IMG/VR virus record: IMGVR_UViG_3300031999_000027
Coordinates: 1 to 53,337 of that record
Reading direction: 5' to 3' (one strand)
Origin: a virus
Length of the DNA stretch: 53,337 nucleotides
How positions within the stretch are numbered: the stretch's first letter is position 1; every line of letters starts with the position of its first letter. The notes beneath the pieces were generated by a model, which ran no database searches, was not told where the DNA came from, and worked only from the letters and a program-made list of their open reading frames with translations. This document shows positions 11,578 through 51,540 of this stretch, piece by piece. The translations under genes were made by a program, and so were the position numbers.

Positions 11578-12305
11578 AAGCGATCGCCATCTGTAGCGGA
11601 GGATTGGATTCCACTGTGATGTTGTATGAGATGATCTCGAATAGAATCACTCCTGTGGTGTTGAGTTTCGACTATGGTCAGAGGCACAGGATAGAACTGG
11701 ATTTCATAGAACGAACGGCGAAGAAGCTCAATCTCCGGTGGATCCTCGAACGTATGCCGACGTTTAACTCAGCTCTGACCACAGGAGTAATGGGGGTTAA
11801 TGAGTTTGAGGAACTAACGAAGGCCATGATTCCAAAAGCTAACTACGATGACGCCTCTCAGAAAATCACAGTTGTTCCCAACAGGAATATGATCATGATT
11901 GCCATCGCTGGGGGATACGCTGTTCAGATGGGTGCTCAGGAAATCTGGTATGCGGCACATTCCGGTGATCATGCGATCTATCCCGATTGCCGAGAGAGTT
12001 TCGTCTGTGCGTTGGCCGAAGCCCTAACCGAGGGAACATATGAGAAGATTCAATTGGTTGCCCCGTTCATCAATCTAACAAAGACAGATATCGTCAAACG
12101 AGGAGCGTTATTGGGAGTACCATTCGAAGACACTTGGAGTTGTTATGATCCCCAGAAACCCCTACATTGGGATCCTCATTACGTTGATCTGCAGATGTTG
12201 CAATGTGGGAAGTGTGGAACGTGCAGAGAGCGAATCGAAGCTTTCACTAAGGCAGGTATCAGAGATCCTACTTCCTACGTGAAAAGTAAAGGAGTGAAAA
12301 CCTAG
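11574..12305 (+). CDS. queC: QueC, 7-cyano-7-deazaguanine synthase
   Basis: Converts 7-carboxy-7-deazaguanine and ammonia to preQ0 with two ATP. The PP-loop SGGLDST lies at residues 8-14, and the family's NRN motif (VPNRNMIMI) at 102-109. The substrate region HSGDHAIYPDCR spans 129-140, and the structural zinc site is C190, C211, C214 and C217 (CGKCGTC). The length of 243 residues is normal and no key residue is missing. It is the first of four preQ0 genes; together with the TGT/DpdA-like protein this points to modification of viral DNA rather than tRNA. Confidence 0.95.
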   Translation: MKAIAICSGGLDSTVMLYEMISNRITPVVLSFDYGQRHRIELDFIERTAKKLNLRWILERMPTFNSALTTGVMGVNEFEELTKAMIPKANYDDASQKITVVPNRNMIMIAIAGGYAVQMGAQEIWYAAHSGDHAIYPDCRESFVCALAEALTEGTYEKIQLVAPFINLTKTDIVKRGALLGVPFEDTWSCYDPQKPLHWDPHYVDLQMLQCGKCGTCRERIEAFTKAGIRDPTSYVKSKGVKT

Positions 12306-12352
12306 GAGATTACTACTATGAATACTAATACTACTCGGGGGTCGTTCGTTTG

Positions 12353-12766
12353 ATGTACCTGAAGTTTGATGAGATCACGTTTGAAGCGGCGCACTACCTC
12401 CCGGGGTATGATGGGAAGTGCGCTGGGATTCACGGTCATACGTATACAGTGAAGGACTTGGTTATTAGAGTGTCAGAGTTCCTAGATGACCAGGGGATCA
12501 TTGTGGACTTCGGGAAGATCACGGGGTATTTCGCCAAGGAGTGGGATCATAAATTCTTGATCCCGGTTGCTGGCATAGGCTATTGGGAAGACATATATGA
12601 ACACACAGGATTCAAGCCGATGATTGATAACAGAAAGGTTGTTAATTATGGCTCCGATGAATACTGTGCTGAGAGAATCAGAGATGAACTAATGGTGTTA
12701 CATCCAAACATCGCCGAGGTTCATTTCACGTTGTACGAAGGGAAGAACCATGGGGTGTCAGTATGA
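12353..12766 (+). CDS. queD: QueD, 6-carboxytetrahydropterin synthase
   Basis: Makes 6-carboxy-5,6,7,8-tetrahydropterin from dihydroneopterin triphosphate. Counting from TTG 12350, zinc ligands are H15 (FEAAHYL), H28 and H30 (GIHGHTY), the catalytic cysteine is C24 (GKCAG), and DFGKI plus WDHKFL (D66, H67) are the usual QueD motifs; E130 ends the active site. The ATG at 12353 directly follows the TTG, and either could be used. The 47-nt gap to queC contains a TACTACTA-type low-complexity stretch. The stop overlaps the next gene (ATGA-like). Confidence 0.93.
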   Translation: MYLKFDEITFEAAHYLPGYDGKCAGIHGHTYTVKDLVIRVSEFLDDQGIIVDFGKITGYFAKEWDHKFLIPVAGIGYWEDIYEHTGFKPMIDNRKVVNYGSDEYCAERIRDELMVLHPNIAEVHFTLYEGKNHGVSV

Positions 12767-13071
12767 TCGCGTTAACTGCGACGACATCAACCTACGAGCA
12801 ACCCAAATGTCCGGGAAAGTGTTCCGAGGGAGATAACTTAGTATGTCCGTATGCTAGCTGGCAGTATCAGACGTCGTTTGTCACTGTAAACGGTCAAGGG
12901 GGTTCATCGAAGTTCACAAAGTACGTTCATTGTGGGTTGGCGACACCCTTCGTGTGGTATCCCACACCGATATTGAGCCCTTGCCCACATGCGACGTGGA
13001 CAATATGGTGTACGGCATTTGGTCTGGATTGTGAGACTTGTCCTGTGAAGAAAGCGAGGAGTGTCCAATGA
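12763..13071 (+). CDS. Eight-cysteine protein inside the preQ0 cluster
   Basis: A 102-residue protein with cysteines at 16, 20, 28, 57, 74, 83, 90 and 93 (CPGKC, CETC among them), enough for two metal sites or an Fe-S cluster. I do not recognise the family. It overlaps both queD (4 nt) and queE (4 nt), so it is made with the preQ0 enzymes. A role as an extra 7-deazaguanine-modifying or electron-transfer partner is possible but only inferred from position. The PP-loop, radical SAM and transglycosylase motifs are absent. Confidence 0.6.
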   Translation: MIALTATTSTYEQPKCPGKCSEGDNLVCPYASWQYQTSFVTVNGQGGSSKFTKYVHCGLATPFVWYPTPILSPCPHATWTIWCTAFGLDCETCPVKKARSVQ

Positions 13072-13772
13072 TAGATCTAGTGGAGATTTTTAGAAGCATT
13101 CAAGGAGAAGGCCCCTTCATCGGGTCACCTGCTGTCTTCGTCAGAGTCCATGGATGTAATCTAGCATGTTCCTTCTGTGATACGAAGTACTCCTGGTACT
13201 CGAACGCCGGGGAGGGTTACAGAGAGGTCGATCCAACAATACTGATCATGGAGATTCTTGACATCGCGAGGATCAACGACATTATCGTCCTGACGGGCGG
13301 GGAACCTATGATCTATCAGGACCAGCTGACACACGTCGCTGGTGTACTTCCACATAAGATTCATATCGAGACTAACGGAACGATCTTGCCTCAGGGAGAG
13401 CAGATCCTCAAGGATATCGATCATTGGGTTGTGAGCCCCAAAGAATGGCAGAAGCCAGAGAATAGAGCTAAGGTCGAATGGTGGTTGGATCATTTCAAGA
13501 AGAATCTCACGATGAAGTTTGTTATATCAACAGAAGACGATGTCGAACTGCTTTCGGAGACGTTTAGACTTCAGAAGGCTCCGTTAGTGGTATTACAACC
13601 AGAGAGGTTCGCAATGACATCAGGGGTACCACATAATGGCAGTCAGCAGGGCCTATATCTAGAGAATATGAAGAAGCTCATTGAATGGGCGGACGCTCAT
13701 CTCAATGGCGTTAACTGGAGGGTTCTCCCGCAGCTCCATTATCTCTTGTGGGGAAACCGACGAGGAGTTTGA
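13068..13772 (+). CDS. queE: QueE, 7-carboxy-7-deazaguanine synthase
   Basis: Radical SAM enzyme that turns 6-carboxytetrahydropterin into CDG. I choose ATG 13068, overlapping the preceding TGA, because the protein then begins IDLVEIFRSIQGEGPFIG, the standard QueE N-terminus. The cluster cysteines are C30, C34 and C37 (CNLACSFC), and TGGEPM is the SAM-binding GGE motif. The C-terminal half (KFVISTEDDVELL, VVLQPE) also matches. The length of 234 residues is typical. Confidence 0.93.
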   Translation: MIDLVEIFRSIQGEGPFIGSPAVFVRVHGCNLACSFCDTKYSWYSNAGEGYREVDPTILIMEILDIARINDIIVLTGGEPMIYQDQLTHVAGVLPHKIHIETNGTILPQGEQILKDIDHWVVSPKEWQKPENRAKVEWWLDHFKKNLTMKFVISTEDDVELLSETFRLQKAPLVVLQPERFAMTSGVPHNGSQQGLYLENMKKLIEWADAHLNGVNWRVLPQLHYLLWGNRRGV

Positions 13773-13776
13773 AATA

Positions 13777-14448
13777 ATGAGAAACGAGCAATCACTTGAA
13801 GACACGATAGAGAAAGAAGGAGACTCAGGGTTAGAATCTACCCCGCATCATTATGTTCTGCATAATAAGGACAAGATCATGGACAAATTCCGTGAAATAT
13901 TGCTCCTATCGGGGTTTAATCCCTCGTCGAATCCATTGAGACGTACCCCGGAGAGACAATGGGAGGTTCTCCGAACTATGACAGAAGGGTATGTTATAGA
14001 CCCCACACTTGATAGAATGTATAGAGATTACGCCCTTGGAGACCTTCCCGGTGTGAGAATCTGCCCGGGAATTCACTTCGTTTCATTATGTGAACATCAC
14101 TTCGTTCCATTCTACGGTGTTGTCGACATAGCATACGTTCCTGGTAACGGCAAAGTCACTGGGCTATCTAAACTCCCTCAGCTGGTACAGAAGTACGCCC
14201 GAAGACCTCAGCTTCAAGAGAAGATGGCTGCGCAGATAGCAGACGAACTAATGCAGAGATGTGAAGTTTCCGGGGTCATGGTCATAGCTTCAGGTTATCA
14301 CACGTGTGAGATGATTGAGGGAGTCAAGGAAGGCTTCCATCGAGATAAACCTTATATCACACCAGAGATCCGGGGATCGTTCACCGCGGACACTGGGCTC
14401 AGGGAAGCTACGATGATGCACCTGGGGAGGTTGGCTAAGAATGTATGA
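13777..14448 (+). CDS. folE: FolE, GTP cyclohydrolase I
   Basis: Converts GTP to dihydroneopterin triphosphate, the first step towards preQ0. The ATG at 13777 lies four bases after the queE stop; a longer frame from 13681 would overlap queE by 92 nt and is less likely. Zinc ligands are C105 and H108 in SLCEHHFVPFYG and C177 in GYHTCEMIEGV. The pterin-binding stretch KVTGLSKLPQLVQKYARRPQ is intact. The first 25 residues are a nonconserved extension. A GTP cyclohydrolase on a virus ensures precursor supply for DNA modification. Confidence 0.93.
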   Translation: MRNEQSLEDTIEKEGDSGLESTPHHYVLHNKDKIMDKFREILLLSGFNPSSNPLRRTPERQWEVLRTMTEGYVIDPTLDRMYRDYALGDLPGVRICPGIHFVSLCEHHFVPFYGVVDIAYVPGNGKVTGLSKLPQLVQKYARRPQLQEKMAAQIADELMQRCEVSGVMVIASGYHTCEMIEGVKEGFHRDKPYITPEIRGSFTADTGLREATMMHLGRLAKNV

Positions 14449-14834: not shown

Positions 14835-14993
14835 ATGTCTGTGCCAGTAGTTGTCTTCAACGGTCGGTTAACAAGGTGTATGTATAAAGAGACAACAGTA
14901 GTGGTTAACTGTAGGGATTGTCTATATAGGTATCAATGCGACGCGATAAATATCACGATTCCTAAGGAGAGTGGAACACCTGATATTCGTTGA
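14835..14993 (+). CDS. Four-cysteine mini-protein, 52 aa
   Basis: A short open frame with cysteines at 15, 26, 29 and 35 (CRDC in the middle), a plausible zinc knuckle, and mostly beta-type residues (VPVVVFNG, TTVVVNC). It overlaps the start of the ERCC4 nuclease by 23 nt. Its AAGGAG near the 3' end could serve as Shine-Dalgarno of the nuclease. No family is recognised. Confidence 0.45.
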   Translation: MSVPVVVFNGRLTRCMYKETTVVVNCRDCLYRYQCDAINITIPKESGTPDIR

Positions 14994-15627
14994 TAGTCGG
15001 GAGCCTCAAGAGGTAATGCAACGCGTCTGGGATAGGAAGATATCTCATATGGTAAAGGCACTCGAGGTGGGGGATTTTCAAAATGAAAAGGGAAACGCGA
15101 TCATCGAGAGGAAAAGACCGGAGGACATCTGGGGTCGAGTCCTTAACAAATCGAACGGCTGGGATGATCAGATGTCGAGATTGTCAGACTACGCATACGG
15201 ACACAACTGTATGCCATGGCTCATTGTTGAAGGCTCATTCGAGACAGCTTCGAGAAGAACTCATGGGAAGTTTCATCCGGAAGAAACCAGAGGAGCTATT
15301 GTCTCTGCGGCCGTACGATATGGAATTGCGGTGTGGAATGCAGAGAGTCTTGATGATCTCCTCACCACAGTCTGCTCTATTTGCGAGAAAGCTGATCGGG
15401 AACTCGGGCAGCCGAAGCAATTGCCCTTCTCGAGAGTAGCTATGGACAAACGCGCTGCCATACTAATGAACGTTTGCCACGTGTCAGCCAAACAAGCAGA
15501 ACATCTGTTGCATCACTTTGGTTCCATTCGAGGGGTTCTCCTAGCCACGGAGAATCAACTGTCGATCGTCGACGGTGTAGGGTTCATCACAGCAAAGAAG
15601 ATCTGTCAGTATAAGGACTCGGTGTAG
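14971..15627 (+). CDS. ERCC4-type structure-specific nuclease with HhH domain
   Basis: XPF/MUS81/Hef-type nuclease domain: VDSREP at 7-12, VGDF at 33-36 and the catalytic IERKRPED at 45-52 (motif ERKxxxD). A C-terminal tandem helix-hairpin-helix follows (VSAKQAEHLLHHFGS..., IVDGVGFITAKKI). Such enzymes cut branched DNA near junctions and flaps, so it may resolve replication or recombination intermediates before packaging. GTG 14971 lies almost on top of the AAGGAG, so a start slightly downstream (CTG 14980) is conceivable. No helicase domain is attached, unlike full-length Hef. Confidence 0.88.
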   Translation: MEHLIFVDSREPQEVMQRVWDRKISHMVKALEVGDFQNEKGNAIIERKRPEDIWGRVLNKSNGWDDQMSRLSDYAYGHNCMPWLIVEGSFETASRRTHGKFHPEETRGAIVSAAVRYGIAVWNAESLDDLLTTVCSICEKADRELGQPKQLPFSRVAMDKRAAILMNVCHVSAKQAEHLLHHFGSIRGVLLATENQLSIVDGVGFITAKKICQYKDSV

Positions 15628-17461: not shown

Positions 17462-17784
17462 GTAAAACGACTGAAAGAATAGCAGCCGAACTTCTTCATG
17501 ATAAAAATCATGAGGAATTAATAAACTTCCCAGGTGTGCTAAACACTGTAGTTGGGAATAAGATAACAGATGGGAAGGACACTGGAGAGATCAGTATTAT
17601 ATTTCTTGTGGCTAAGAAGAAGAAACTAAGGGGACTAAAGGTAGTTGATAGGATACCACCCACCTATAGGGGTGTCCTAACTGACGTCCAAGAGCTCTCA
17701 TCTAAGGACTTCGATCTAGGACCTACGGATGCTTCTAAAATGAGACCGTCTGATCAGAAGAAACTACTTGGGGTGATGAAGTGA
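17458..17784 (+). CDS. Propeptide-like protein paired with the papain-like protease
   Basis: The 108 residues follow a pattern (FPGVLNTVVGNKITDGKDTG, EISIIFLVAKKKKL, DRIPPTYRGVLTDVQEL) that I recognise from the N-terminal domain of many bacterial and archaeal secreted proteases: PGVxGxGxGxK, TGExxIxVFVxxK, IPxxxxGVxTDVxE. Here it is a separate gene whose stop overlaps the GTG of the protease gene (GTGA at 17781-17784). I infer an intramolecular-chaperone or inhibitor role supplied in trans, keeping the protease inactive until release. Family naming is from memory of the pattern. Confidence 0.6.
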   Translation: MSKTTERIAAELLHDKNHEELINFPGVLNTVVGNKITDGKDTGEISIIFLVAKKKKLRGLKVVDRIPPTYRGVLTDVQELSSKDFDLGPTDASKMRPSDQKKLLGVMK

Positions 17785-18536
17785 GCAGAGATCCTGGATT
17801 ACCTGATATTGCAAGATTTGCAAGTCCTATCTATAATCAAGGTGCTTGTGGCTCTTGTACAGCATTTGGCACTCTTGGAGCTGTGGAACTTGAGATTAGG
17901 AAGATGCATAATACCCCCGATGAGAAACTTGAATTGAGTAGACGTGATCTTTTCAGCTGCTCTGGTGGAACTTGTAATAGAGGTAACTATGTGGATGTTA
18001 CAGTCATTGCAGCTGAGAAGGGTGTCGCATTGAATGATGATTGTCCATACGATGCGATGGATCATAGCTGTGAACAGGGGAGAACGGCCGATTGGTGGAA
18101 GAGAGGAAAGAAGACTACTAAGACTATATCATTCAAAACACACGATGACATGAGAGCGGCTCTTTCAGATGGATATGCCCTTGTGGGTTCGATGGCTGTT
18201 TACACAAGTTTCTTTAACTATAGGAAGGGAGTATATCAACATCTTCCTGGTGAACGGTTGGAGGGATACCACTGTATTTCTATGCATGAATATGATGTAT
18301 CTGATGAATCGGTTCTGATTCAGAACTCATGGGGTGACTGGGGATGTCCCAACCCAAGAAGAACTGACCAACCTTATGGCTATTGTTGGATAAAGATAAC
18401 AGAACTTGATCCTGAGTCATTCAGGGTGGTCGTAAATGATGATCCAATACCAGAGCCTGGACCGGATCCGTCAATATGGGAGAAGATATGGAACTGGATT
18501 ATTATCCTCTTGAGGAGGATATTTGGAGGTAAGTGA
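17781..18536 (+). CDS. Papain-like (C1) cysteine protease, C-terminal membrane anchor
   Basis: Mature-form C1 peptidase: Q20 of the oxyanion hole and catalytic C26 in NQGACGSCTAF, H164 in GYHCISMHEYD and N182 in QNSWGDWG. The C/H/N spacing matches papain. No signal peptide is visible and the prodomain is absent from this gene; a propeptide-like protein is encoded immediately upstream. After a Pro-rich linker (PIPEPGPDP) the last 20 residues (IWEKIWNWIIILLRRIFGGK) form a hydrophobic, amphipathic helix with basic end, a probable membrane tether. Next to a two-TM protein this suggests a lysis enzyme attacking S-layer or other surface protein; a virion-associated protease is an alternative. Confidence 0.85.
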   Translation: MSRDPGLPDIARFASPIYNQGACGSCTAFGTLGAVELEIRKMHNTPDEKLELSRRDLFSCSGGTCNRGNYVDVTVIAAEKGVALNDDCPYDAMDHSCEQGRTADWWKRGKKTTKTISFKTHDDMRAALSDGYALVGSMAVYTSFFNYRKGVYQHLPGERLEGYHCISMHEYDVSDESVLIQNSWGDWGCPNPRRTDQPYGYCWIKITELDPESFRVVVNDDPIPEPGPDPSIWEKIWNWIIILLRRIFGGK

Positions 18537-19291: not shown

Positions 19292-20557
19292 TTGACAATA
19301 CTATTGATGCCCACACTAGATTGTAACTTCCGATGCCTGGCATGCTTTGAAGACCCAATACACTCAAAGACTGTGGTAAATATCCCACTTAATTTAGATG
19401 CTATGGAACAGACATTAGCTAAACTTTGGGAGGACACATATTATCATGGCAGTGGGATTGGGATTCATGGAGGAGAGTGTCTGCTTGCACCACCTGTCGT
19501 ATTAGATAGGCTATTCGAGGTTCAACAAAAGTACACTGGAGGTACTTCAGTAGTAACAAATGCCTCACTGATAACTCCAGCTATTATGAGACTTTTCAAG
19601 AAGTACAAGACTGATGTGTCAGTTAGTGTAGATGGTCCGCCAGAGTATAATCTCTTGAGGGGTCCCAGTCCACTTGACAAAGACATCACGGGAGAGTACA
19701 ACAAGTTACTGAATGACAACATCAAATGGCTTCGAGAAGAGGAGATATCTGTAAGCGTGATGTGCATTATTAACAAGTTTAACTCAGGAGATGCTAAGAA
19801 AGTCAAACGAATGAAGCAATGGTTCAATGAGCTGGCTACGTTGGGAATACGTGGAGGAAGGATTAATCCAATGTATGCTGATGGAGCGGCTAAGAAATAC
19901 GAACTCACTAACGATGAATTGCTGTACGCATATATTGAGTACACTAAGATGACGTTTGAGAGCAGCAAGATGAGATGGTTGCCGTTCAGGGAAATGATAG
20001 ACAACGTGCTTAACTTCAGTTCTTCTCCATGTATCTTTGGAGGGTGTGACTTCTTATGCACACACACTGTGACCATATTCCCCGACGGTTCACTCGGTAA
20101 CTGTGACAGAACATTCTCGGATGGCGTTGGCATAAGAAGCGAGTACGGGAAGAGAGAAGGTAGAACAAGCGCCCTCCAGCAGACACAATGCGCGGGATGC
20201 AATTACTGGAACATATGTAAAGGAGGATGCCCTTGTGAGGGGGTTGACGGCGATTGGAGAAACAAAACTAGATTCTGTGAAGCCATCGCTGGAACATACG
20301 ACTTCATTACAGATTATCTAACAGGACTACTGCCAAATGTGAGAATTTCTAATGACAGTGAACCATTCAGAGCCATGGGTTGGGGTCTTGTAGACAGACC
20401 TACGACATTCGGAAACTACACTGCTAAAACACAAGCTTTACCGCAAACTCAACAGCCAAATGGACATAGCGATAGTCACGGAGATCATCACGGAGATAAA
20501 CCGCATGGTGACCATGCGGATGAGGCACATAATGATCAAGGAGGAGTGAGACAATGA
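19292..20557 (+). CDS. Radical SAM/SPASM peptide-modifying enzyme with His-rich tail
   Basis: Starts at TTG adjacent to the previous TGA. Residues C11, C15 and C18 (CNFRCLAC) bind the radical SAM [4Fe-4S] cluster; IHGGECLLAP is the SAM-binding GGE motif. A SPASM domain with ten cysteines (247, 252, 256, 271, 300, 303, 309, 313, 315, 329; CAGCNYWNICKGGCPC) should hold auxiliary clusters. SPASM enzymes typically modify peptides or proteins (sactipeptide, anSME, HxsB-like families). Residues 391-413 form a His/Asp/Gly tail (NGHSDSHGDHHGDKPHGDHA) absent from the usual family and alike in composition to the His-repeat protein at 22923-24269. The next two genes overlap in series. Confidence 0.85.
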   Translation: MTILLMPTLDCNFRCLACFEDPIHSKTVVNIPLNLDAMEQTLAKLWEDTYYHGSGIGIHGGECLLAPPVVLDRLFEVQQKYTGGTSVVTNASLITPAIMRLFKKYKTDVSVSVDGPPEYNLLRGPSPLDKDITGEYNKLLNDNIKWLREEEISVSVMCIINKFNSGDAKKVKRMKQWFNELATLGIRGGRINPMYADGAAKKYELTNDELLYAYIEYTKMTFESSKMRWLPFREMIDNVLNFSSSPCIFGGCDFLCTHTVTIFPDGSLGNCDRTFSDGVGIRSEYGKREGRTSALQQTQCAGCNYWNICKGGCPCEGVDGDWRNKTRFCEAIAGTYDFITDYLTGLLPNVRISNDSEPFRAMGWGLVDRPTTFGNYTAKTQALPQTQQPNGHSDSHGDHHGDKPHGDHADEAHNDQGGVRQ

Positions 20558-21369
20558 AGGAAGTTCAACCGTTTATATCTTTATCGTGGAAAAACCAAGA
20601 AGTCAGACAGAAGTGGGAACCAATCAGACAGGCGATCTATAAGGCAACCTATATTGCAGAATATGAAATGATAAAACGAGGGAAGAGGCACTGCGACGTA
20701 TATACTTTCACTCCCCAGAGATTCGACGAGCAGATGAACTGGGTGATTAATAACGGGTTCGTACCGTTAACGATATTGAAGTCAAAGACATACGAGGGGT
20801 TCGGACACAGGCACTATCCCGCAGATAAGATGGATTGGGACGTGTTCGCATACAGTGTAATAGCTGATACTTATGAGAATGCCAAGAAGTTCCAGCAGGC
20901 GAGCATTGGAAATGTCGATCACCGGATCATAGGACAATTACTAGGCTACCCAGAGTGCTGCATTGATTTCTTCCTTCCCATTTGGCTAGAGAAACGTGTG
21001 ATGGATCCGATGTGGGAGATTGCAGAGAACACTGAAGGGATGAAAAGGACATCGACAGAAATCGAGGTCACCGGAAACCCAATGTTGAATAGGATGGCAA
21101 GGTACTTTGGTCTTCAGGTCTGCCCATTCTTCACCCACAGCTACACCTGTAAAGAAGCCATCAAGTTCAATGAAGCCTGGTACGAAATAATGCACGACCA
21201 TTATCCGTATGAATCCGAAGAACTACTGAAGCTCCTAGCTATGCCTATGACATGGAGCCACCACAACATGATCATCTATGTCGAGCATCCCTTATTCAGG
21301 GGAGCAAGTAATGGATTCGACTGGGACACGAAAAAGGTGGTTAGATGGCTAGGCTCAGCGTCTGCCTGA
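20554..21369 (+). CDS. DUF483-like GYPECC protein, 271 aa
   Basis: The motif LGYPECCIDFF at residues 130-140 and a later C190PFFTHSYTC199 are characteristic of the DUF483 group of archaeal and viral proteins of unknown function. The protein lacks membrane segments and any nucleotide-binding loop. The paired cysteines could bind metal or take part in thiol chemistry. ATG overlaps the radical SAM stop (ATGA) and the gene overlaps the following glycosyltransferase by 25 nt, so it likely works in the same pathway, presumably protein or glycan modification. Confidence 0.6.
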   Translation: MKEVQPFISLSWKNQEVRQKWEPIRQAIYKATYIAEYEMIKRGKRHCDVYTFTPQRFDEQMNWVINNGFVPLTILKSKTYEGFGHRHYPADKMDWDVFAYSVIADTYENAKKFQQASIGNVDHRIIGQLLGYPECCIDFFLPIWLEKRVMDPMWEIAENTEGMKRTSTEIEVTGNPMLNRMARYFGLQVCPFFTHSYTCKEAIKFNEAWYEIMHDHYPYESEELLKLLAMPMTWSHHNMIIYVEHPLFRGASNGFDWDTKKVVRWLGSASA

Positions 21370-22136
21370 CCGGACATTCCAGACCTCTCTTATCCCAACT
21401 AGTATTTGAGAGAGCCAAGGACATCCTAGATGGTTATGATTGTGAGTTTACGTTCGCATACGATAGAGACCCGGAATCCCCCCATGATGAGTTGATTGAG
21501 ATAGTTAAGTTGCTATTCGATATTAAAGAGGTTGTGATAAGCAAACATCACACCAAGCGAGGAGAGTTACTCAATGATGCGTTTATGAAGAGTTCAGGGG
21601 AGTATTACATATTTTTGGAGAACGATTGGTACTGGGTAGAGGATAGGATCGAAGATGCCATACGGGCATTAGATGAAGTAGACTTCGTTCGGATGGTGCG
21701 CACTCCGTTCAAGAACTTTACCACAATTAAGAATGGTTTCTGCATATTAGCTCCAGAGACAGGTTATGCGTATAACTTTAACCCTAGTGTTAGGAAAGAT
21801 GTATTCCTTATAGGAATATTCAGAGAGGATTTGAACAGCGATCAACTAGAGAGTCTTACATCGACGTTATTCAACGCTATGGGTAAAACAGCTGCAGTAC
21901 TCGATACTGATAGTTTATCCCACATAGGATTTGTCAATAGCAATGGGGTGTTGAGAGAGCAACATTTCATTCGGGAGGGGATTAAGCCTTCACTTATCGA
22001 AGTAGTGAAGTGGTTTGAGTCAATCTCAAAAGATCGGTCGCATATTGATCTTTTCGTAGAGCATCTCCAAACAGAGGTCAGAGGAGCAGACAAAGGAGTG
22101 GAGTTAGATGAAACTTTCAGCAGTAATATCCTATAG
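21345..22136 (+). CDS. Glycosyltransferase, GT-A-like, 263 aa
   Basis: N-terminal Rossmann-like start (RLSVCLTGHSRPLLSQLV), then a stretch with spaced strands and the acidic motif YYIFLENDWYWVEDRI around residues 87-102, resembling the DxD region of GT-A enzymes. Further hydrophobic/aromatic segments and the pattern NFNPSVRKDVFLIG are like those of phage-encoded glycosyltransferases placed near tail genes. It overlaps both neighbours (25 and 29 nt). The likely substrate is a virion or host-surface protein; this is inferred from location only. Confidence 0.6.
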   Translation: MARLSVCLTGHSRPLLSQLVFERAKDILDGYDCEFTFAYDRDPESPHDELIEIVKLLFDIKEVVISKHHTKRGELLNDAFMKSSGEYYIFLENDWYWVEDRIEDAIRALDEVDFVRMVRTPFKNFTTIKNGFCILAPETGYAYNFNPSVRKDVFLIGIFREDLNSDQLESLTSTLFNAMGKTAAVLDTDSLSHIGFVNSNGVLREQHFIREGIKPSLIEVVKWFESISKDRSHIDLFVEHLQTEVRGADKGVELDETFSSNIL

Positions 22137-22947
22137 AGACTGCATTAGAACAGGCTATCCGTTCTTAGAATCCATCTTAAGTGTACTGCCGATTGTGGAC
22201 GAGTACCTGATAAACGACGGTGGGTCGATTGATGGAACTCTTGAAGCAACGAAACGATTAGTTGAGATGTATCCTGATAAGATTATATTATTTCAGATTA
22301 AAGATTATCCCTCAGACCATTGGCAGTGTGTCTCCGAACAATACAATAAATTACTTAACGATGCAACTGGAGACTGGATATTCATGGGAAATGCCGATGA
22401 GTTGATGCATGAAGATGACGCGAGAAAGTTTAGGGCAAAGCTAGAAGCATCACCGATTGATATCTTGGTCTACAGACACCTTCGGCGGGAAGTCTCTAAC
22501 TGGTGGAGCGAGATGGGTTCTTATGATTATTACCCTGCAAGAACTGTTCGTAATATAGAAGGGGTTTTTCAGAGTTGGGCAAGTCACGGAGGAGACGAGT
22601 TCTTGGTGCCTGAGTGGAGGTGGTTAAGAGAACCCCCTGAGTGCCAAACATTGGATGGATATATGATGTGGCATTACTACATGATGTTCCCCGAAAACAT
22701 CTTTGAGAAAAGGAAACATGATTCCGAAGAGGTAGCCACAGGAGATAAGGAAAGAATGATCCAGTACGAATGGTGGAAGGAGAACAAAGACAAGATAAAG
22801 CCGCCCGAGTGGTATGGGAAGAAAACTGTTCCGGACCAACCTAGGTCTATGCAGGGATTAGTAGGAGCCTTGAGATATTATGTTAGAGAAGAAATGTTTG
22901 ATAGAAAGTGGATACAGGAAATTTATGAAGGCACAGTATCCCAGTGA
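22108..22947 (+). CDS. Family 2-like glycosyltransferase, 279 aa
   Basis: GT2 hallmarks are present: LSAVISYRDC at the N-terminus, INDGGSIDGTLEATKRL (the NDGSxDGT motif) and WIFMGNADELMHEDD (the acidic metal-binding motif) around residues 90-105. The C-terminal half has RHLRREVSNWW and WASHGGDEF. It should transfer a sugar from a nucleotide donor. It is the last plus-strand gene of the block and its final 25 bases overlap the end of the convergent His-repeat gene, leaving no space for a terminator. Confidence 0.75.
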   Translation: MKLSAVISYRDCIRTGYPFLESILSVLPIVDEYLINDGGSIDGTLEATKRLVEMYPDKIILFQIKDYPSDHWQCVSEQYNKLLNDATGDWIFMGNADELMHEDDARKFRAKLEASPIDILVYRHLRREVSNWWSEMGSYDYYPARTVRNIEGVFQSWASHGGDEFLVPEWRWLREPPECQTLDGYMMWHYYMMFPENIFEKRKHDSEEVATGDKERMIQYEWWKENKDKIKPPEWYGKKTVPDQPRSMQGLVGALRYYVREEMFDRKWIQEIYEGTVSQ

Positions 22948-24269
22948 GCCACATCATCGTGAGCTATATCTGTATGGTAGTTGGTGTGGGTGTCTACATG
23001 TGCAGTATTTGAATGTGGTGTGTTAACATGCGGAACATTCCCGTGGGAGTTTGAATGATTATTCACATGCGGTGTATTAACATAGCTATTGTAATGTGGA
23101 GTGTTTTCATGCGGAATGTTAGTGTGGCTGTCGCTATGCGGTGTATCCTCATGCACATCTCCGTGTGTATTAGTATGGGTATCTACATGAGCTGTGTCGC
23201 TGTGGACATCTGAGTGAGTGTTCACATGATCGTTCACATGGGCTGTATTGGTGTGGGTATTAGTATGAGGAGTATTATAGTGAGGAGCGTTGCTGTGACT
23301 GTCATTGTGTGCAAGGTCATCATGGACATCTGAATGAGTATCAGCATGGGCACTATCTGAGTGAGTATTGGAATGAGTGTTACTGTGTGGTATATTTTGA
23401 TGTTCCTCAAGCTGGCGGTCAGTATGCGGAACATCTGAGTGAGTATCCGAATGAGAGTTACTATGAGGGGTGTTCGAGTGAGTATTTGAGTGATCATTTA
23501 CATGAGCCACATTGCTATGAGTATCACTATGCGATGTATCACTATGAGAAACATCACTATGGCTATCAGCGTGTGCCGTATCGTCATGAACATCGGTGTG
23601 AAGATTTGTATGAGTGTTGGTATGAGGAGTATTTGCGTGAGGAACGTCTCCGTGAGTGTTTGAATGGTCATTTATGTGCACATTGTCGTAATGGGCATCC
23701 GCATGGGCTGTATCAGTATGAGAGTCACTGTGACTATCATAGTGTGCGGTGTCCTCGTGAACGTCACCATGAGTGTTTGTATGAGTATCTACATGGGGCA
23801 CATTTGAATGGGGGGTATTGACATGAGGAACATTACTGTGGGTATTTAAGTGAACAACATTCGCATGTTCCCCCTCCCTTAATAGCCTCCAAGAGCGAAT
23901 ATCTCCAGTAGATTGATACCTAACGGGAGACGCTTCAGGATGATCAGTTTGTACGGTGTAAATAGACTTCGCGGCAACCGAAGTTCGAATCCGTGGAACT
24001 CCACCTACACCAGTAGCCCCATCTGCTGTTGCTACTATAGTGATTGGAACATACGGTGTATCTAAATGTGCCTTATCTACGTGAACATCGGCGTGCGAAT
24101 CAACGTGGGTATCGGTATGTGAATCCCAATGCTCAGGAGACAGATCCACATCTGTATGATTCTGATGAGGAACATTACTGTGAGTATTCGTATGGGTATT
24201 CATATGGGTATTTTCATGCACGATGTTGACGTGCCCAGCGAGGCGGAGCCCATCATACTGATTCGGCAT
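22923..24269 (-). CDS. His-rich repeat virion protein, 448 aa
   Basis: About 80 of 448 residues are histidine. Residues 13-70 and 135-446 are tandem H-x-[DN]-x-H and H-x-[DN]-x-x-H units, such as THSNVPHVNTPHSNVPHVD. They surround a non-repetitive middle domain (72-133, containing VPITIVATADGATGVGGVPR and IRSWRLLREGEH). The regular spacing of His and Asp/Asn would allow many metal ions to be bound along a rod, as HxH motifs do in T4-type fibre tips. ATG overlaps the preceding tail gene stop (TAATG). It is the last gene of the late operon, so a distal tail fibre or tip protein is likely. Function is inferred; no family name is known to me. Confidence 0.75.
   Translation of the reverse strand: MPNQYDGLRLAGHVNIVHENTHMNTHTNTHSNVPHQNHTDVDLSPEHWDSHTDTHVDSHADVHVDKAHLDTPYVPITIVATADGATGVGGVPRIRTSVAAKSIYTVQTDHPEASPVRYQSTGDIRSWRLLREGEHANVVHLNTHSNVPHVNTPHSNVPHVDTHTNTHGDVHEDTAHYDSHSDSHTDTAHADAHYDNVHINDHSNTHGDVPHANTPHTNTHTNLHTDVHDDTAHADSHSDVSHSDTSHSDTHSNVAHVNDHSNTHSNTPHSNSHSDTHSDVPHTDRQLEEHQNIPHSNTHSNTHSDSAHADTHSDVHDDLAHNDSHSNAPHYNTPHTNTHTNTAHVNDHVNTHSDVHSDTAHVDTHTNTHGDVHEDTPHSDSHTNIPHENTPHYNSYVNTPHVNNHSNSHGNVPHVNTPHSNTAHVDTHTNYHTDIAHDDVAHWDTVPS
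22932..23867 (-). repeat. His-codon tandem repeat region of the fibre gene
   Basis: The DNA coding residues 135-446 is a degenerate tandem array with 12- and 15-base units, each beginning with a His codon. Reading the opposite strand gives long open frames because the repeats exclude stop codons there. The array is coding sequence, not CRISPR; units are not identical and no constant repeat/unique spacer alternation exists. Confidence 0.7.
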
Positions 24270-27223
24270 TAAAGATCAGTCCTAAACCACAGTTCGCCGG
24301 TCCGCGGAGTACTTGGATCGCCTGTTTTAAGAGGAAGTATTAGGTGAGCATCCACGTCACTTAAATCTAACGTCGCGAACACATCGATATCACCATCTCC
24401 TCGGAATTTCAACGAGTACCCACCTGATTCTAATGTAATATCCTGAGTCCCCAGAACGGTCATTATTTTGAGTGTACCTCTGCCACCTTCCTCAGTACCA
24501 TCGATCCATCCTATAGGGGTACCATCGGCTTTCTGAATCCCATATTGACCTATCCCCTTTACAGTCACTCCATTAGAGTCTAATATGACATTCCCCCCTC
24601 CGGCAGTAGCTTTGCCCGTAGCTGCATCCAAGGAGAACTGCAACGTTCCTGTTCCCGCAGCTCCAGAATACCCCTTGATCCCAGCTTCGTTGATCATTAT
24701 ATGCCCATCAGCAACGTAAGCCTCCCCTGTTGTCGGATCGAGTTTAAATGTGATCGTTGATGCGTCTTTCATCCCCACAATCCCTAGAGTGTCCGACATG
24801 ATGATTTTCGGATAACCAACCGATGTCTGGATCAAATGACCAGTGATCGTCATCGTAGCCTCAAGATGATCCACAATGATCGACTTAACTGTAATGACCC
24901 CTCCTGATATCGTCGGGAGATAACTATCAAACATTAATATCGTCGGGGGTTTGGAACTATCGGTCTCAACCTTCACTATCGCAATCATTCCAAGACCAGG
25001 TCCTGTTGCTGCAGCATGATCAGTGGTTTGACGTAAAGTTGTGGATGCATCCCAGTAACAGTACCAAACCCCTGCAGCTAAAGTGATCCTTGACGCATAG
25101 AGTAACGCGTCGATTGTCTTAGAACTTCCATCGGAGAATGTCACCTTGGCATTATCAGTGATCGCCCCACCCTTTCCCCAGTAGAACTTATTATTCGACG
25201 GAGTCGCAGAATCGTAAGTAACATACAAGTCCGACGTCCAGGGTCTTAACTCAACATTCAGATCAATCGCCGAGAGTTTTAATGGAGTAGCAACGACCGA
25301 ACTCGTAGCGGCCGATATGTTCTTCGACGTATCAAAGGCCTTCACCCAGAAATACTGTGGAACGTAATCGGATGTTGTCTCTACTACCCAGGCGAAGAAG
25401 TTAGTATTAATCACCGCTATCGGATCTGCAGGGATGCTGTTCGTTGTGTTCCGATAAACTAAGTATCCAGCTAAGTCAGCTTCTGTGTTCACCGTCCATC
25501 GGACAATCACCCCCCCAGGGATTCCAGTAGCTCCTAATCCAGTGGGCACTCCCGGAGGGGTCGTGTCTGTTGCTGCTAATTTATCGACAATCGTCGTCCA
25601 TGGGGAGTACTTATTAAGTTTGGATATCGCCACTGCTTGGAATTTATAAACCAATCCCGGCATACATCTAGGGATCACAAAATAGATATCCGTCCCTGAC
25701 CCCGGATCATCCATAAACAACGTCGTCCAATTCGTTGTGCCGTCGATTCTGACTCTCAACGCATACTGAGTAGCCCCAGTGACTCTAGCTATCTTAACAT
25801 CAAACGTGATCGACACTGTACCATCTGCGGCAATGGCCGATGTTGTTGTAATATCTGACGCGTCGAATCCCGCTGGAGCGGCCAAAGTCGTTCCATAAAG
25901 TTGACCTTCTCCCAAGGTTGTTCCCTTACCTTGGAAGGTTTCAATAGTTAACGAATTAACCCCATCACAGGTGATCTTCGCTAAGAGACCTTTCACGTTC
26001 CCTACGCAGTCACTATACAACTGAGAATAGGTCAGTGCCGCGACCGGCCATAACCAATAAACATACGTGGTTCCCACAGATACAGTGATCGTCTGCTGAG
26101 GAGTCAGATCGATCACTAATGTATCTCCATCAGCGAAGTTGATATTCCCATCCGCCGGTGGGGTAGCCCCGTTGACATTCACTGTGTAGACCGGATCGAT
26201 TACATCTACACTGAACACTATATCGGAATTCCAACCTTGAGAGCCCTTAGGGATCGCTGACGTTATATAAATGCCAAACTCCTCATACTTCGTCAGATCG
26301 ATCACTCTGTCTTCCAACGTCTTATTTGGTGCGTTGATTGATATAAACACCTGATCGAGTCTTCGGACTATCCTCGTGATCCTCTCCGTGGTTCCAGTTA
26401 ATCCTAACGCAGGAACAGTTAACGCTACAGTATCCCCTAGAGATATCACTCCAGAGTCATTCAACGATACTTCTAACTGACTGGGACCGTCTTCGACGTT
26501 CATCTCATTATAATATTTAAGAGCTAACAAATTTAACGTCGTGACATCTGCGGCTTTCTTCTCGGTAAATGATCTTATCTTAGTTCCTAATCCATCATTA
26601 TAGAACCCCTCTAAATACGCCCCAGCTGCGTTTTGTCCTCTAACGTAAACTATATTGACCTTTCCTACTCTATTTTTCATCCTTGACGTCTCTATATCCT
26701 GAATGATCGTGAGAGCTCCTTTATAAGAACCTCTCAGGCCGACGACAAATGTATTCGTCGCTTCAACATAATAATAGTCTGTGTTCGCAATATCCGCTAG
26801 GAACTTTCCAGCATCAAAACATGACGCTCTAGCGAAACGTACAGAAATAACCGGATCAGTCGGCGCAGTCCATGAGACCACAACCCCTGCGGCGAGTCCG
26901 ATGGCAGTCAATATCGTCGACGCAGCGGTCGCCACGTAATTCTCCGTGATCCCCTTGAACGCCATCTTGTAATACACGCTAGGAATGATGCTCGTTTCTA
27001 GAACATCTGCAGCGTGATTCGCTCCGGTGCAGGTTCCGGAGAATAGCAAAGTTGATCCTCCGGTAGTCCACCTCAATGTCGCAGGGCAGTCACTGTTGAC
27101 AATCGTTCGATTCCCTGACGTATTCGGGAGAAATATCTTGCATATCTCCGTACCATTGAGGTTCTCATCTGACTCAGATAACCAACCAGTGGATCCCCCG
27201 ACGATAGACTCATATCCCGTCAT
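24269..27223 (-). CDS. Tail tip/central fibre protein with FN3 domains, 984 aa
   Basis: The first 310 residues have a baseplate-hub type pattern, including DIETSRMKNRVGKVNIVYVR with LGDTVALTV and ERITRIVRRLD, as in tail proteins of siphoviruses. Residues 310-440 carry a beta-rich insertion, residues 446-548 and 555-647 two fibronectin type III domains (GVPTGLGATGIPGGVIVRW; YFWVKAFDTSKN), and the C-terminus (660-984) is beta-rich, ending ILPLKTGDPSTPRTGELWFR. It would form the distal tail tip that contacts the host. It follows the tape measure and Dit-like genes, the canonical order. Confidence 0.8.
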   Translation of the reverse strand: MTGYESIVGGSTGWLSESDENLNGTEICKIFLPNTSGNRTIVNSDCPATLRWTTGGSTLLFSGTCTGANHAADVLETSIIPSVYYKMAFKGITENYVATAASTILTAIGLAAGVVVSWTAPTDPVISVRFARASCFDAGKFLADIANTDYYYVEATNTFVVGLRGSYKGALTIIQDIETSRMKNRVGKVNIVYVRGQNAAGAYLEGFYNDGLGTKIRSFTEKKAADVTTLNLLALKYYNEMNVEDGPSQLEVSLNDSGVISLGDTVALTVPALGLTGTTERITRIVRRLDQVFISINAPNKTLEDRVIDLTKYEEFGIYITSAIPKGSQGWNSDIVFSVDVIDPVYTVNVNGATPPADGNINFADGDTLVIDLTPQQTITVSVGTTYVYWLWPVAALTYSQLYSDCVGNVKGLLAKITCDGVNSLTIETFQGKGTTLGEGQLYGTTLAAPAGFDASDITTTSAIAADGTVSITFDVKIARVTGATQYALRVRIDGTTNWTTLFMDDPGSGTDIYFVIPRCMPGLVYKFQAVAISKLNKYSPWTTIVDKLAATDTTPPGVPTGLGATGIPGGVIVRWTVNTEADLAGYLVYRNTTNSIPADPIAVINTNFFAWVVETTSDYVPQYFWVKAFDTSKNISAATSSVVATPLKLSAIDLNVELRPWTSDLYVTYDSATPSNNKFYWGKGGAITDNAKVTFSDGSSKTIDALLYASRITLAAGVWYCYWDASTTLRQTTDHAAATGPGLGMIAIVKVETDSSKPPTILMFDSYLPTISGGVITVKSIIVDHLEATMTITGHLIQTSVGYPKIIMSDTLGIVGMKDASTITFKLDPTTGEAYVADGHIMINEAGIKGYSGAAGTGTLQFSLDAATGKATAGGGNVILDSNGVTVKGIGQYGIQKADGTPIGWIDGTEEGGRGTLKIMTVLGTQDITLESGGYSLKFRGDGDIDVFATLDLSDVDAHLILPLKTGDPSTPRTGELWFRTDL

Positions 27224-27234
27224 GGTTGATCATC

Positions 27235-27633
27235 CTACAGTGATATGATCTGCGATCCTTCCCAGAACTCCGCAGTGTAGAAGAACGCAGTCATTACTCC
27301 TGGGCGTTCCTCAAAACTGATCCCTGCGAATACATACGTTCGTCCGCTGTAGAGTCTCCCAGTAGCGGTAATAGTGACCGTCTTATATACTGCTGCATCA
27401 AGAGGGGTCAAATAAGTAGTCGTTAATGTATCCTTAGACGACGCAGGCATTGTCGAGATGATTCCCTCTATCTGTAGAACGTTCGCCTTCCTTCCAAACG
27501 CTAGAAGTAACGGTAACGCTCCAGGGAATCTCGTCTGTTTAACATCCGCTTGTAACTTATGAACAATCCTCGAGGGAAACCTCGGTAACGTGATCGCTCC
27601 TGCTGTTGGGGTTATAACAAAATTCAAATCCAT
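27235..27633 (-). CDS. Distal tail (Dit-like) protein, 132 aa
   Basis: A small beta-rich protein between tape measure and the central fibre gene, the usual position of a distal tail protein. Strands such as RIVHKLQADVKQTRFPG, ANVLQIEGIIST, TVTITATGRLYSGRTYVFAGISFEE match the belt-domain pattern of Dit/LysM-like tail adaptors. The start overlaps the tape measure stop. The assignment is mostly by synteny. Confidence 0.65.
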   Translation of the reverse strand: MDLNFVITPTAGAITLPRFPSRIVHKLQADVKQTRFPGALPLLLAFGRKANVLQIEGIISTMPASSKDTLTTTYLTPLDAAVYKTVTITATGRLYSGRTYVFAGISFEERPGVMTAFFYTAEFWEGSQIISL

Positions 27634-30245
27634 TTACCCCCCATAGTTTTGGTGAACGTTACAATCGATGAACCCTTCGACGCGGCATCTGCTATCTTCT
27701 GCAAATCTACATCTCCGGAGATATTACCAATCTCAAAGTTCATATACTGTGTCTGATTAACCTGTGGAGTACGATATGCCATCCCTGTATTATCGGTCGG
27801 AGCGGGTGTCGGAACTGGTGTAGGGTTCGCGGGGGTTGTCCAACCAAACGCCTGCCCTAGCCATGAGTTCTTTATCCAGTCAATGATTCCTTGAACAAAC
27901 CCTGTTAAGGCATCTCTGATTCCCCCGAAGTTAGTAACCAACAAGACAATCGCTGCGATCAACAACCCAATAGCTATGACCGGCCAACCAATTGCGGCTA
28001 CCACAGATGCAATCACAGGGATCAGTGTCGTGGTAATGAACCCAACGATAGTACCAATCAAAGGACCCAACCCAAGAATTTGCATAATAAGCCCAGAGAT
28101 TATAGAAATGATAGGAGCAAAGAGTACAAAGATCCCTGCGAGAAATCCCAACGCGGGCATTAGAGGTGTAAGGGCCTTCAGAACATTCAATATTATAGGT
28201 GCGAACAACGCCAGAGTGTTAATCAAAGAAACCAAGAACGCCCCTATAGGACCTCTTAATGCCTCAGCGATGGCATTGATTATGATAATCAAACCAGGCC
28301 CTGCTTGAATAGCAATCGCCATCATAGCGAGAGTTATATTCCCTAACGCCACTTGAACATTTAATGCTTCCTTAGGGAAGTCAGTAAGAACCTGCAGGTT
28401 CTCCGCAGTTCTCGCCGGAGTAGTTCCCCCACCGTATCCAGCCTGTTGTAACCCTATAGCCTCAGCAACAGAGGAAATCGTTTCCTCCCATTGTGCCATA
28501 GTATCAATGAGAGTCTTCAACGTCGAAGTCGCAATATTCCATATTATCCTATTTAGCTGCATCATCCTATACGCTAGGAAGAACAGCCCTCTACCCATAG
28601 CCCCTCCAGCAGATCCAGCCGCTCCTTCTCCAGCTGGACCTCCTACCCCACCCTGTGCTTCAGCTGCTTCAGCACCTTCGCTTAACCCAGTGACATCTCC
28701 AGTTCTCTCAGCGTATTCTTCCTCCGTCTCCGGGCGTTGCCTACCATACACAGGTTCTCTTACTGTTCTCTTTTTGCCGTTCTCTTGTTTTTCAACCTCT
28801 TTAAACCCAAGTATATCTCTGATATACTGTCTAGGAACCTCTGTCAGTGGAGGTTCTTGCTCCCTCTTGAACAACTCAGCTATTCGACTTCTGAAACTCT
28901 GCTTAATCAGTCCCATAACTCCAACTTCTCTTGGAACCTCTCCAGGCATCCCTTCCGCTCCAGGGGGCACCTTACTAACCTCAGCCATAGATTCAACATA
29001 AGCTCCCTCGAAGGCTGAGTTGATTAAATCGAATGTCTCCTTGGCACCGAGACCTCCAGCGGTCCATCGTTGCTCACCATGTCTCTTTCCCTCCGCTGTC
29101 TCCCATATGTCCTCCGACCTAAGTGTGGGTGGGATAGCAGCCATTAACCTTTCAGTAATCCCCTTTCTAGCTTCCTCAGGAATTGTCTCCTTTGTAAGCT
29201 GTTCCATCTGTTTCATTAACTCAGGGATCTGTTCCTCTGGAGGTATTACCTCCCGAGTAGCCGCCATCCACATCCTTGGCGCAGGTCCCTCACGCAGTTC
29301 ATTGTACGCATCAAAGCTCTTTTTCATACTGTCTTTATAATACTTCTGAAGATCCGTTTTACTAAGCATCGCCTTAGGCATAAGTGCCTCTCTTGGAGGA
29401 ATCTTTACAGGACCTTTCTTAGTTAATACCTCCCCTTGTATAGCTTCGACTAAATTCTGCTCCTTCTCAGTGTCCTCAATGATTGATTGTATCAAAGTCG
29501 GAAGGGCCGTGATCATCGAATCCACTAATTCTCTCTTACCCTTGGATTTCATCATCATATTCAATGATGCTATCAATTGTTGCTGAACGGCTTTGCTTTT
29601 CCTAGACGAAGGCCTAAGTGTCCTTTCTGTTGCCTCAATTAGAGTGAACCCCTCACCTTCTTCGTCCTCCTCTTCCTCTCCTGAAGGTACAGCTCCTGTC
29701 GCAGCGGCAGCAATCCCAGATTTGATCCTCGCTGCGTCGGCCTCCGCTTCCTTCGCGACTCGTTTCTCTTCCTCTACCGCGTCCTCCTCAGCTTCTTCAA
29801 ACTTAGCCTCTTTTAATTGTGCGAGAAGTTCCTCCTCAGTTAACACTGACTCCCCTGGTTGAAGATCCGTTCTAATATTAGTCTCTGGAATGCCTAACTT
29901 CATCCCTAGAGACCCAGGAATAAACTGCGTAGTCCTCGCAATAGTCGGCGCACCAGTGGGCCTTCTCCCAGAAGGCAACTCAACCCGTTTCTTAGGATTC
30001 CTAAACTCCTTAGGGGGTTGTTCTTTGCCAAAAACCTGCGTTACATTCGCGGCATCTTCCCTTGATAACGGTTGTCTGGTACTATAAACAGCCGCTGTTG
30101 CACTCTGAAGATCCTTTATTTGCTCCGTAGCTTGTTTCGCATCATCTGTGAGACTTTTGAGCTCCCTTTTGACTTCCTCTATAGCTCTAGTATCTCCCTT
30201 CTTTGCAGATACCTCAACCTCAAGTTTCTTCTCGGTTTCCGCCAA
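27624..30245 (-). CDS. Tape measure protein, 873 aa
   Basis: The N-terminal 500 residues are charged and helical with coiled-coil stretches. Residues about 530-560 are Gly/Ala-rich (AEAAEAQGGVGGPAGEGAAG). Residues 655-800 hold several long hydrophobic helices (for example GLIIIINAIAEALRGPIGAF, PVIASVVAAIGWPVIAIGLL), and the end is Pro-rich. This is the classic tail-length ruler layout. It sits just after the G/GT chaperone genes. The start is TTG 30245 inside the T-frame. By the usual correlation, the length suggests a moderately long flexible tail. Confidence 0.88.
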   Translation of the reverse strand: MAETEKKLEVEVSAKKGDTRAIEEVKRELKSLTDDAKQATEQIKDLQSATAAVYSTRQPLSREDAANVTQVFGKEQPPKEFRNPKKRVELPSGRRPTGAPTIARTTQFIPGSLGMKLGIPETNIRTDLQPGESVLTEEELLAQLKEAKFEEAEEDAVEEEKRVAKEAEADAARIKSGIAAAATGAVPSGEEEEDEEGEGFTLIEATERTLRPSSRKSKAVQQQLIASLNMMMKSKGKRELVDSMITALPTLIQSIIEDTEKEQNLVEAIQGEVLTKKGPVKIPPREALMPKAMLSKTDLQKYYKDSMKKSFDAYNELREGPAPRMWMAATREVIPPEEQIPELMKQMEQLTKETIPEEARKGITERLMAAIPPTLRSEDIWETAEGKRHGEQRWTAGGLGAKETFDLINSAFEGAYVESMAEVSKVPPGAEGMPGEVPREVGVMGLIKQSFRSRIAELFKREQEPPLTEVPRQYIRDILGFKEVEKQENGKKRTVREPVYGRQRPETEEEYAERTGDVTGLSEGAEAAEAQGGVGGPAGEGAAGSAGGAMGRGLFFLAYRMMQLNRIIWNIATSTLKTLIDTMAQWEETISSVAEAIGLQQAGYGGGTTPARTAENLQVLTDFPKEALNVQVALGNITLAMMAIAIQAGPGLIIIINAIAEALRGPIGAFLVSLINTLALFAPIILNVLKALTPLMPALGFLAGIFVLFAPIISIISGLIMQILGLGPLIGTIVGFITTTLIPVIASVVAAIGWPVIAIGLLIAAIVLLVTNFGGIRDALTGFVQGIIDWIKNSWLGQAFGWTTPANPTPVPTPAPTDNTGMAYRTPQVNQTQYMNFEIGNISGDVDLQKIADAASKGSSIVTFTKTMGGKWI

Positions 30246-51075: not shown

Positions 51076-51077
51076 AC
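51037..51077 (+). repeat. 41-bp direct repeat, first copy
   Basis: Identical to bases 51500-51540. It covers the last codons and stop of copies 1 and 2 of the paralogous family plus three bases. Perfect identity in otherwise diverged genes suggests recent gene conversion or recombination between the copies. Confidence 0.7.
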
Positions 51078-51089
51078 TGATGAAGAGTG

Positions 51090-51198: not shown

Positions 51199-51211
51199 AA
51201 GATATGCAGAG

Positions 51212-51538: not shown

Positions 51539-51540
51539 AC
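51500..51540 (+). repeat. 41-bp direct repeat, second copy
   Basis: Second copy of the repeat at 51037-51077; together they frame copy 2 of the gene family plus the hairpin region, so recombination between them would delete exactly one gene unit. Confidence 0.7.

Follow-up and report, generated by a model that had tools for sequence, protein, structure and literature searches.

The window analysed here (53,337 nucleotides) comprises positions 1–53,337 of record IMGVR_UViG_3300031999_000027 of the IMG/VR virus collection. It encodes a putative maturase of the radical S-adenosylmethionine (SAM) type with a SPASM domain (hereafter rSAM; 19292–20557, + strand), followed by a DUF483-like protein (20554–21369, + strand). 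Convergent with both lies a gene (22923–24269, − strand) whose product, a putative tail fibre and maturase substrate, carries a dense repeat of His-x-[Asp/Asn] triads (H-x-[D/N]). The pairing of such an enzyme with such a repeat is real and widespread in tailed viruses and, as far as could be found, undescribed. The repeat protein is very likely matured by the rSAM as its dedicated enzyme. Maturation of a tail fibre through many crosslinks between aromatic rings and β carbons (Cβ) is probably the best explanation of the results.

Enzyme, repeat and their co-occurrence

The first-pass annotation had placed between the rSAM gene and the repeat gene a DUF483-type GYPECC protein and two glycosyltransferases of overlapping order; an open reading frame (ORF) check confirmed all these genes and their coordinates. 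The repeat protein (448 aa) contains 82 His, 51 Asp and 46 Asn. All His but one belong to H-x-[DN] motifs (81/82; 40 HxD and 41 HxN), against an expectation of 17.8 ± 3.4 motifs and a maximum of 30 in 2000 composition shuffles. According to the motif positions, the triads form two blocks, residues 13–70 (24060–24233, − strand) and residues 135–444 (22938–23867, − strand), and are mostly separated by linkers of 0–3 residues. Tandem Repeats Finder detected just two stretches within the gene, of 42 and 29 bp, DNA-level repetition being weak. Variable linkers and weak tandem repetition of the DNA indicate that the pattern is maintained by protein-level selection and not by recent repeat expansion. 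The annotated number of about 80 His was accurate, and the repeat unit was redefined: it is the triad H-x-[D/N], of which the annotated H-x-[DN]-x-H is merely one frequent arrangement.

The rSAM (421 aa, TTG start) scored 36.5 bits with the Pfam Radical_SAM model (PF04055; cut-off 29.5) and matched phrog_1802 (3e-27). Its Fe-S ligands are intact: the CX3CX2C cysteines (C11, C15 and C18) and eight auxiliary-cluster cysteines (C247, C252, C271, C300, C303, C309, C313 and C329) were invariant among 42 relatives. The C-terminal Cys motifs align with those of anSMEcpe, and the set of auxiliary cysteines is that of a complete SPASM domain. The AlphaFold2 (AF2) model resembles the solved structures of anSMEcpe, ChlB, CteB, SuiB, SkfB and TigE, all peptide-modifying SPASM enzymes. 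The protein ends in a substrate-like H-x-D tail (20459–20554, + strand; C-terminal end NGHSDSHGDHHGDKPHGDHADEAHNDQGGVRQ), which is predicted to be disordered, the predicted local distance difference test (pLDDT) score being 33–40 from residue 360 onward. At least two HxD/N motifs were found in 33 of 50 nonredundant tails of the rSAM family and in 0 of 70 control rSAM tails. Gly occupies the x position in 60% of the triads of rSAM-family tails versus 13% in the repeat proteins. The description as a SPASM radical SAM protein with a His-rich tail was thus borne out for the CX3CX2C motif, the auxiliary cysteines and the tail.

Relatives were collected by alignment-based scans (viral contigs and, for one scan, genome contigs) and by a repeat-pattern scan, giving an rSAM-family set of 61 records including the window; the window rSAM alone, used as a single query against viral contigs, had returned no relative. 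The set comprises Thermus phages Cumys, phiMa and phiLo, IMG/VR contigs, prophages and some chromosomes; compared records and loci are labelled by L-numbers (e.g. L154). A repeat cluster was defined as an ORF with at least five H-x-[DN] per 60 aa, the tail of the rSAM itself being left out. Such a cluster was found nearby in 54 of the 61 records. None of 120 random viral loci (990 kb) had one, the densest stretch there reaching four per 60 aa, and at a threshold of six per 60 aa none was found at the 68 loci where other rSAM/SPASM genes lie. Fisher tests gave p ~1e-38 and ~1e-28, respectively, values that overstate independence because of near-copy records (e.g. L005/L007 and L029–L031), on which the effect does not depend. 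Five of the seven records with no cluster (L011, L018, L020, L023 and L161) end near the rSAM gene or are short contigs.

A reverse search was performed with a DNA pattern encoding HxDxHxDxHxDxHxD, with no use of the rSAM. Many matches proved on reading to be microsatellites or other repeats read out of frame, and were discarded. Nineteen real repeat proteins were retained, of which 17 share a record with an rSAM of the same clade; the other two lie on short records (17.6 and 19 kb). Co-occurrence in relatives, the check proposed by the first-pass annotation, was thus found in both directions. In a tree of 41 linked and 30 control enzymes, all linked ones, including those found via the repeat alone, fell on one side of a 100/99 branch; fine placement is unsure owing to long branches, that of the window among them. 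Modules were also found on chromosomes of Chloroflexota (L155), Bacteroidota (including Aquimarina and Owenweeksia), Sphingomonas and Acidobacteriota, and their rSAMs group together within the viral tree. The repeat gene usually abuts or overlaps the start of the rSAM gene, and gene order varies between records.

A DUF483 relative is present in 55 of the 61 records. The window protein scored 21.9 bits with the DUF483 model (PF04467), a weak match below the cut-off of 25, and the homologue in L156 passed with 26.5 bits, so that the annotated family label was right. C135, C136 and C199 are conserved, corresponding to a GYPxCC motif and a third Cys common to the relatives. Many relatives carry a fused C-terminal SAM methyltransferase domain, which is absent from the window copy. 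The AF2 model is confident (pLDDT 95), and a fold search of the PDB with it gave no match at E ≤ 0.001. Two natural fusions combine rSAM and DUF483 in one ORF (L159:8567-12142 and L161:461-2191; no repeat protein was seen near them), which supports a joint function of the two proteins.

Tail-gene setting and described loci

The repeat gene had been annotated as a late virion gene, which its position supports. In the window, TerL, portal, tail fibre, minor tail, tape-measure and tip protein genes follow each other on the − strand and the repeat gene comes last, at the end of the tail operon. Directly upstream of it is the gene of the tail-tip/virion structural protein (24269–27223, − strand; phrog_32822, virion structural, 1e-8). 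The tape-measure protein of the same operon (27624–30245, − strand) matches phrog_991 (E 4e-5) and phrog_58 (1e-4; tail length tape measure). A virion fibre is the likely site of the repeat protein.

Among 50,697 phage records, relatives of the rSAM were present in just three, those of Thermus phages Cumys, phiMa and phiLo, and a DUF483 protein adjoins the rSAM in each of them (3/3). In Cumys (Cumys_13; 54 triads) and phiMa (phiMa_29), two phages whose host is T. thermophilus HB8, the unannotated gene immediately upstream of the rSAM gene encodes an H-x-D repeat protein. phiLo has the layout of the window, with two convergent H-x-D repeat proteins encoded 4–6 kb from the rSAM. The repeat genes come after baseplate wedge genes in phiLo and lie among tail and baseplate genes in Cumys. 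The order in L154 is baseplate wedge, tail fibre, baseplate protein, repeat protein, rSAM, DUF483 and endolysin, and the L029 module belongs to a tail-sheath virus. Fusions of the repeat to the end of large proteins occur in L017, L022, L025, L028 and L102, the last of these having a tail-fibre-assembly domain. The main repeat proteins of the linked records are about 180–1500 aa long, and their repeats are either C-terminal or distributed over the chain. For the L008 repeat protein, no Pfam or PHROG family was found. Most repeat proteins (e.g. L002:10961-11250) begin with a triple GSxW[IV]EGxxLxYID motif at a spacing of ~35 aa, which is probably a virion anchor.

The first-pass annotation had presented the system as a candidate for an undescribed one. 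This stands for the enzyme–repeat pairing, no description of which was found; the locus of rSAM, DUF483 and an unknown protein in phages Cumys and phiMa was already reported by Kolesnik et al. (2024; PMC11437467). In the passages available from that paper, a role in DNA modification is suggested, derived from cyanobacterial loci with deazapurine genes. The rSAM and DUF483 proteins are of the same family as those of the window, and the third protein is the H-x-D repeat protein described above. The repeat, its broad co-occurrence with the enzyme and a role in protein maturation are absent from those passages, and histidine is not mentioned in the text of the paper that was searched. A search of the accessible literature on radical SAM enzymes with phage tails found nothing relevant.

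Motif constraints, proposed chemistry and rival explanations

Motif constraints were analysed in 42 nonredundant repeat regions (8,356 aa). Asp or Asn was found at +2 of 97% of the 1,552 His, other spacings being depleted, and Ser at +2 of 5 of these 1552. H-x-H occurred seven times versus 284 expected from composition, a 40-fold depletion. Where Asp or Asn had no His at −2, Tyr, Trp or Phe was enriched there five- to nine-fold, and Glu, Cys, Lys and Gln were not enriched. Substitutions were compared in five close pairs, three of which share members and so are not all independent. The aromatic site was changed in 3% of cases, and in six of seven changes the new residue was again aromatic (H>Y, H>W and F>W). 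The D/N site was changed in 12.5%, 24 of 29 changes being swaps between Asp and Asn, and linkers in 27%; all site classes had similar rates of synonymous change. Replacement of aromatic by aromatic residues, D/N swaps and free linkers point to chemistry that involves an aromatic ring and a β carbon, and away from chelation. The annotation had proposed that the enzyme recognises or mimics the repeat and modifies it, possibly by crosslinking or metallation. We infer that recognition and modification do take place; since the recognised unit is aromatic-x-[D/N], crosslinking is favoured and metallation disfavoured.

The three genes probably form a maturation module for a tail fibre, in which the rSAM would act on aromatic-x-[D/N] triads, mostly with His. 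By analogy with triceptide enzymes, it would take a hydrogen from the Cβ of Asp or Asn, which would then be joined to the aromatic ring two residues earlier (His imidazole, or Tyr, Trp or Phe) with loss of 2 H per triad. Enzymes that form three-residue cyclophanes join the ring of residue i (Trp, Phe, Tyr or His) to Cβ of residue i+2; Asn, Asp, Arg, Ser and Ala are known Cβ donors, and known pairs include Trp-Asn/Asp, Tyr-Asp, His-Ala and His-Arg (PMC11002830). The product here, judged from this analogy, would fairly probably be a three-residue cyclophane. With up to ~80 small rings, a chain that is flexible, polar and of low complexity would become stiff and resistant to proteases and heat, as a rod or an adhesive virion tip. 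The DUF483 protein would be a dedicated partner, perhaps one that holds the substrate or a second modifying protein. The disordered H-G-D tail of the rSAM may act as a substrate-like element, either holding the repeats or being itself modified. For a fibre with dozens of His-x-Asp/Asn cyclophanes along one structural protein, covalently stiffened unlike known virion proteins and encoded on chromosomes as well, the case is evenly balanced. If true, this would be the first radical-SAM-matured virion protein known to us, and ring-forming peptide chemistry, familiar from short antibiotics, would be extended to a structural polymer of repeats in which each chain offers up to ~80 sites. Such a role would also give a function to a module noted as unexplained in Thermus phages, a testable role to DUF483, and a source of genetically encoded, possibly heat-stable stapled protein polymers.

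Several known systems share features with the module. Triceptide enzymes (XncB, OscB, MscB, YxdB, HaaB and YhhB) are likewise SPASM rSAMs adjoining a substrate with aromatic-x-x motifs; here, in contrast, His-Asp/Asn dominates, tens of triads lie in a large tail protein with no leader seen, a DUF483 partner is present and scores are far below the cut-offs of all named families. In the His-Xaa-Ser system (HxsA–D), rSAM genes are also linked to a His-repeat protein. The present module differs by D/N instead of Ser as third residue, by a single rSAM instead of HxsB plus HxsC, by the DUF483 partner and by its place among phage tail genes. The HxsB model matched weakly (34.3 of 370 bits), and no HxsC was found at cut-off among the scanned neighbours. 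The glycine-rich repeat system GrrA/GrrM and the repeat peptide system TvgA/TvgB also have a single rSAM that modifies a repeated motif many times, but differ in motif and product and do not involve virion proteins. Iron-binding HxH tail fibres (T4 gp37 tip) are similarly His-rich, whereas HxH is depleted here. We know of no rSAM partner for HxH fibres.

Several observations weigh against cyclophane formation on a tail fibre. The solved structures nearest to the rSAM model are those of anSME and ChlB. The cut-offs of the named cyclophane families were all missed by the window enzyme (DynA 74.9/450, AmcB 59.3/425, YhhB 39.8/445 and GrrM 37.1/310 bits), and the sulfatase maturase model scored in the same range (59.7 of 349 bits). 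His-x-Asp cyclophanes were not found in the accessible literature, and tens of sites with no visible leader are unlike triceptide precursors. Many Trp, Tyr and Phe of the repeat regions lie outside aromatic-x-[D/N] triads. Finally, L158 and L159 are real exceptions to co-occurrence, being untruncated and devoid of the repeat. As all tested family cut-offs were missed, the module was left outside every named family, though it would work like triceptide maturation. All 23 rSAM members scanned (23/23) matched the DynA, YhhB, AmcB, GrrM and XyeB models, far under cut-off and alongside sulfatase maturase models. No sulfatase gene was found among the scanned window proteins. The residue beside an auxiliary-cluster Cys, where sulfatase maturases have their catalytic Asp, is Gly in most members of the rSAM family and Asp (D272) in the window.

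The serious rival to crosslinking is another rSAM reaction on the same triads by the same dedicated maturase. The result could be, for example, a His N–Cβ bond or a link from one triad to another, or the residues could be epimerised, hydroxylated or decarboxylated; the DUF483-methyltransferase might or might not add methyl groups. Gene association and motif constraints fit it equally well, and many DUF483 partners do carry a methyltransferase domain. DynA is the nearest NCBIfam model to the window rSAM, and dynobactin also has a His imidazole N–Cβ link. TvgB provides a precedent for a different rSAM reaction on a repeat peptide (PMC9062424). This rival is nevertheless rather unlikely: a constant spacing from i to i+2, together with replacement by aromatic residues alone, is characteristic of i/i+2 crosslinking, and epimerisation or decarboxylation needs no aromatic residue. 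A metal-binding needle of the HxH iron type, the rSAM link being secondary or serving metallation, would suit a His/Asp-rich chain in a tail protein, in which a β strand would present all His on one face, and HxH iron sites occur in T4 gp37 and other fibres (PMC11705849). It is improbable in view of the seven H-x-H observed, linkers of 0–3 residues that break the strand register, and replacement of His by Tyr, Trp or Phe and not by Cys, Glu or Gln; moreover, loading of metal needs no radical SAM enzyme.

Still less probable is a role of rSAM and DUF483 in DNA modification, as proposed in the available passages of Kolesnik et al. (2024; PMC11437467), with the repeat protein unrelated or accessory. 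The 7-deazaguanine genes of the window (11574–14448) fit this idea for this one virus. However, QueC was found in 4 of 39 searched module records and in 0 of 3 Thermus phage genomes, compared with the repeat in 54 of 61, and the rSAM is of the SPASM peptide type, the repeat being copied in its H-x-D tail. The joint presence of both genes in a variable tail-end region, with changing gene order, could also reflect hitchhiking of a hypervariable tail-fibre cassette and no enzyme–substrate relation. This is extremely improbable, since the association holds whichever of the two genes is taken as the starting point, in diverse tailed viruses, in prophages and on the chromosomes of four bacterial groups (Chloroflexota, Bacteroidota, Sphingomonas and Acidobacteriota) and the motif recurs within the enzyme's own tail. 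Crosslinking of the triads is thus retained as the preferred explanation.

Other genes of the window and of related loci

The two GT2 glycosyltransferase genes between the DUF483-like and repeat genes (21345–22136 and 22108–22947) overlap as annotated. They were rejected as parts of the module, no homologues of either being found in the case loci. A papain-family (C1) cysteine protease gene lies upstream of the module (17781–18536); it is unusual in a prokaryotic virus, and the related loci have no homologue. The protease and a 187-aa ORF of the window were rejected on the same grounds. The absence of homologues from the case loci places the glycosyltransferases and the protease outside the conserved module.

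Some related loci have features of their own. In the Chloroflexota locus L155, the repeat gene (L155:8354-9277) adjoins the rSAM gene and a DUF483-methyltransferase fusion. Its product has, as judged by eye, a putative Tat-like signal, H/Y/W-x-D repeats and a C-terminal hydrophobic membrane segment, and is a candidate cellular exported form of the system. In Aquimarina (L157:12002-13447) and Mucilaginibacter (L158:11982-13436), a fourth gene of ~483 aa follows rSAM and DUF483, with a weak P-loop signal in L158, and upstream genes of both loci encode large proteins. The rSAM gene of L013 (9929-11194) is split by a stop and is intact in the close relative L012, indicating a pseudogene or a sequencing error.

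Elsewhere in the window, a complete-looking 7-deazaguanine set (11574–14448) consists of QueC, QueD-like, QueE-like (a second radical SAM gene) and FolE genes, which suggests that the virus DNA is deazaguanine-modified. QueC, the only gene of the set tested there, was also present in the relatives behind L007, L074 and L071. Genes for a Family B DNA polymerase (5930–8500), a PD-(D/E)XK (Cas4-like) nuclease (9540–10355) and an archaeal Hef/XPF-like nuclease (14971–15627) indicate that the host may be archaeal. Four tandem paralogous ORFs of 101–108 aa (50761–52644) have in common a KLxGK..VT..QL and a Y.YHILE-like pattern and are possibly small DNA-binding regulators.

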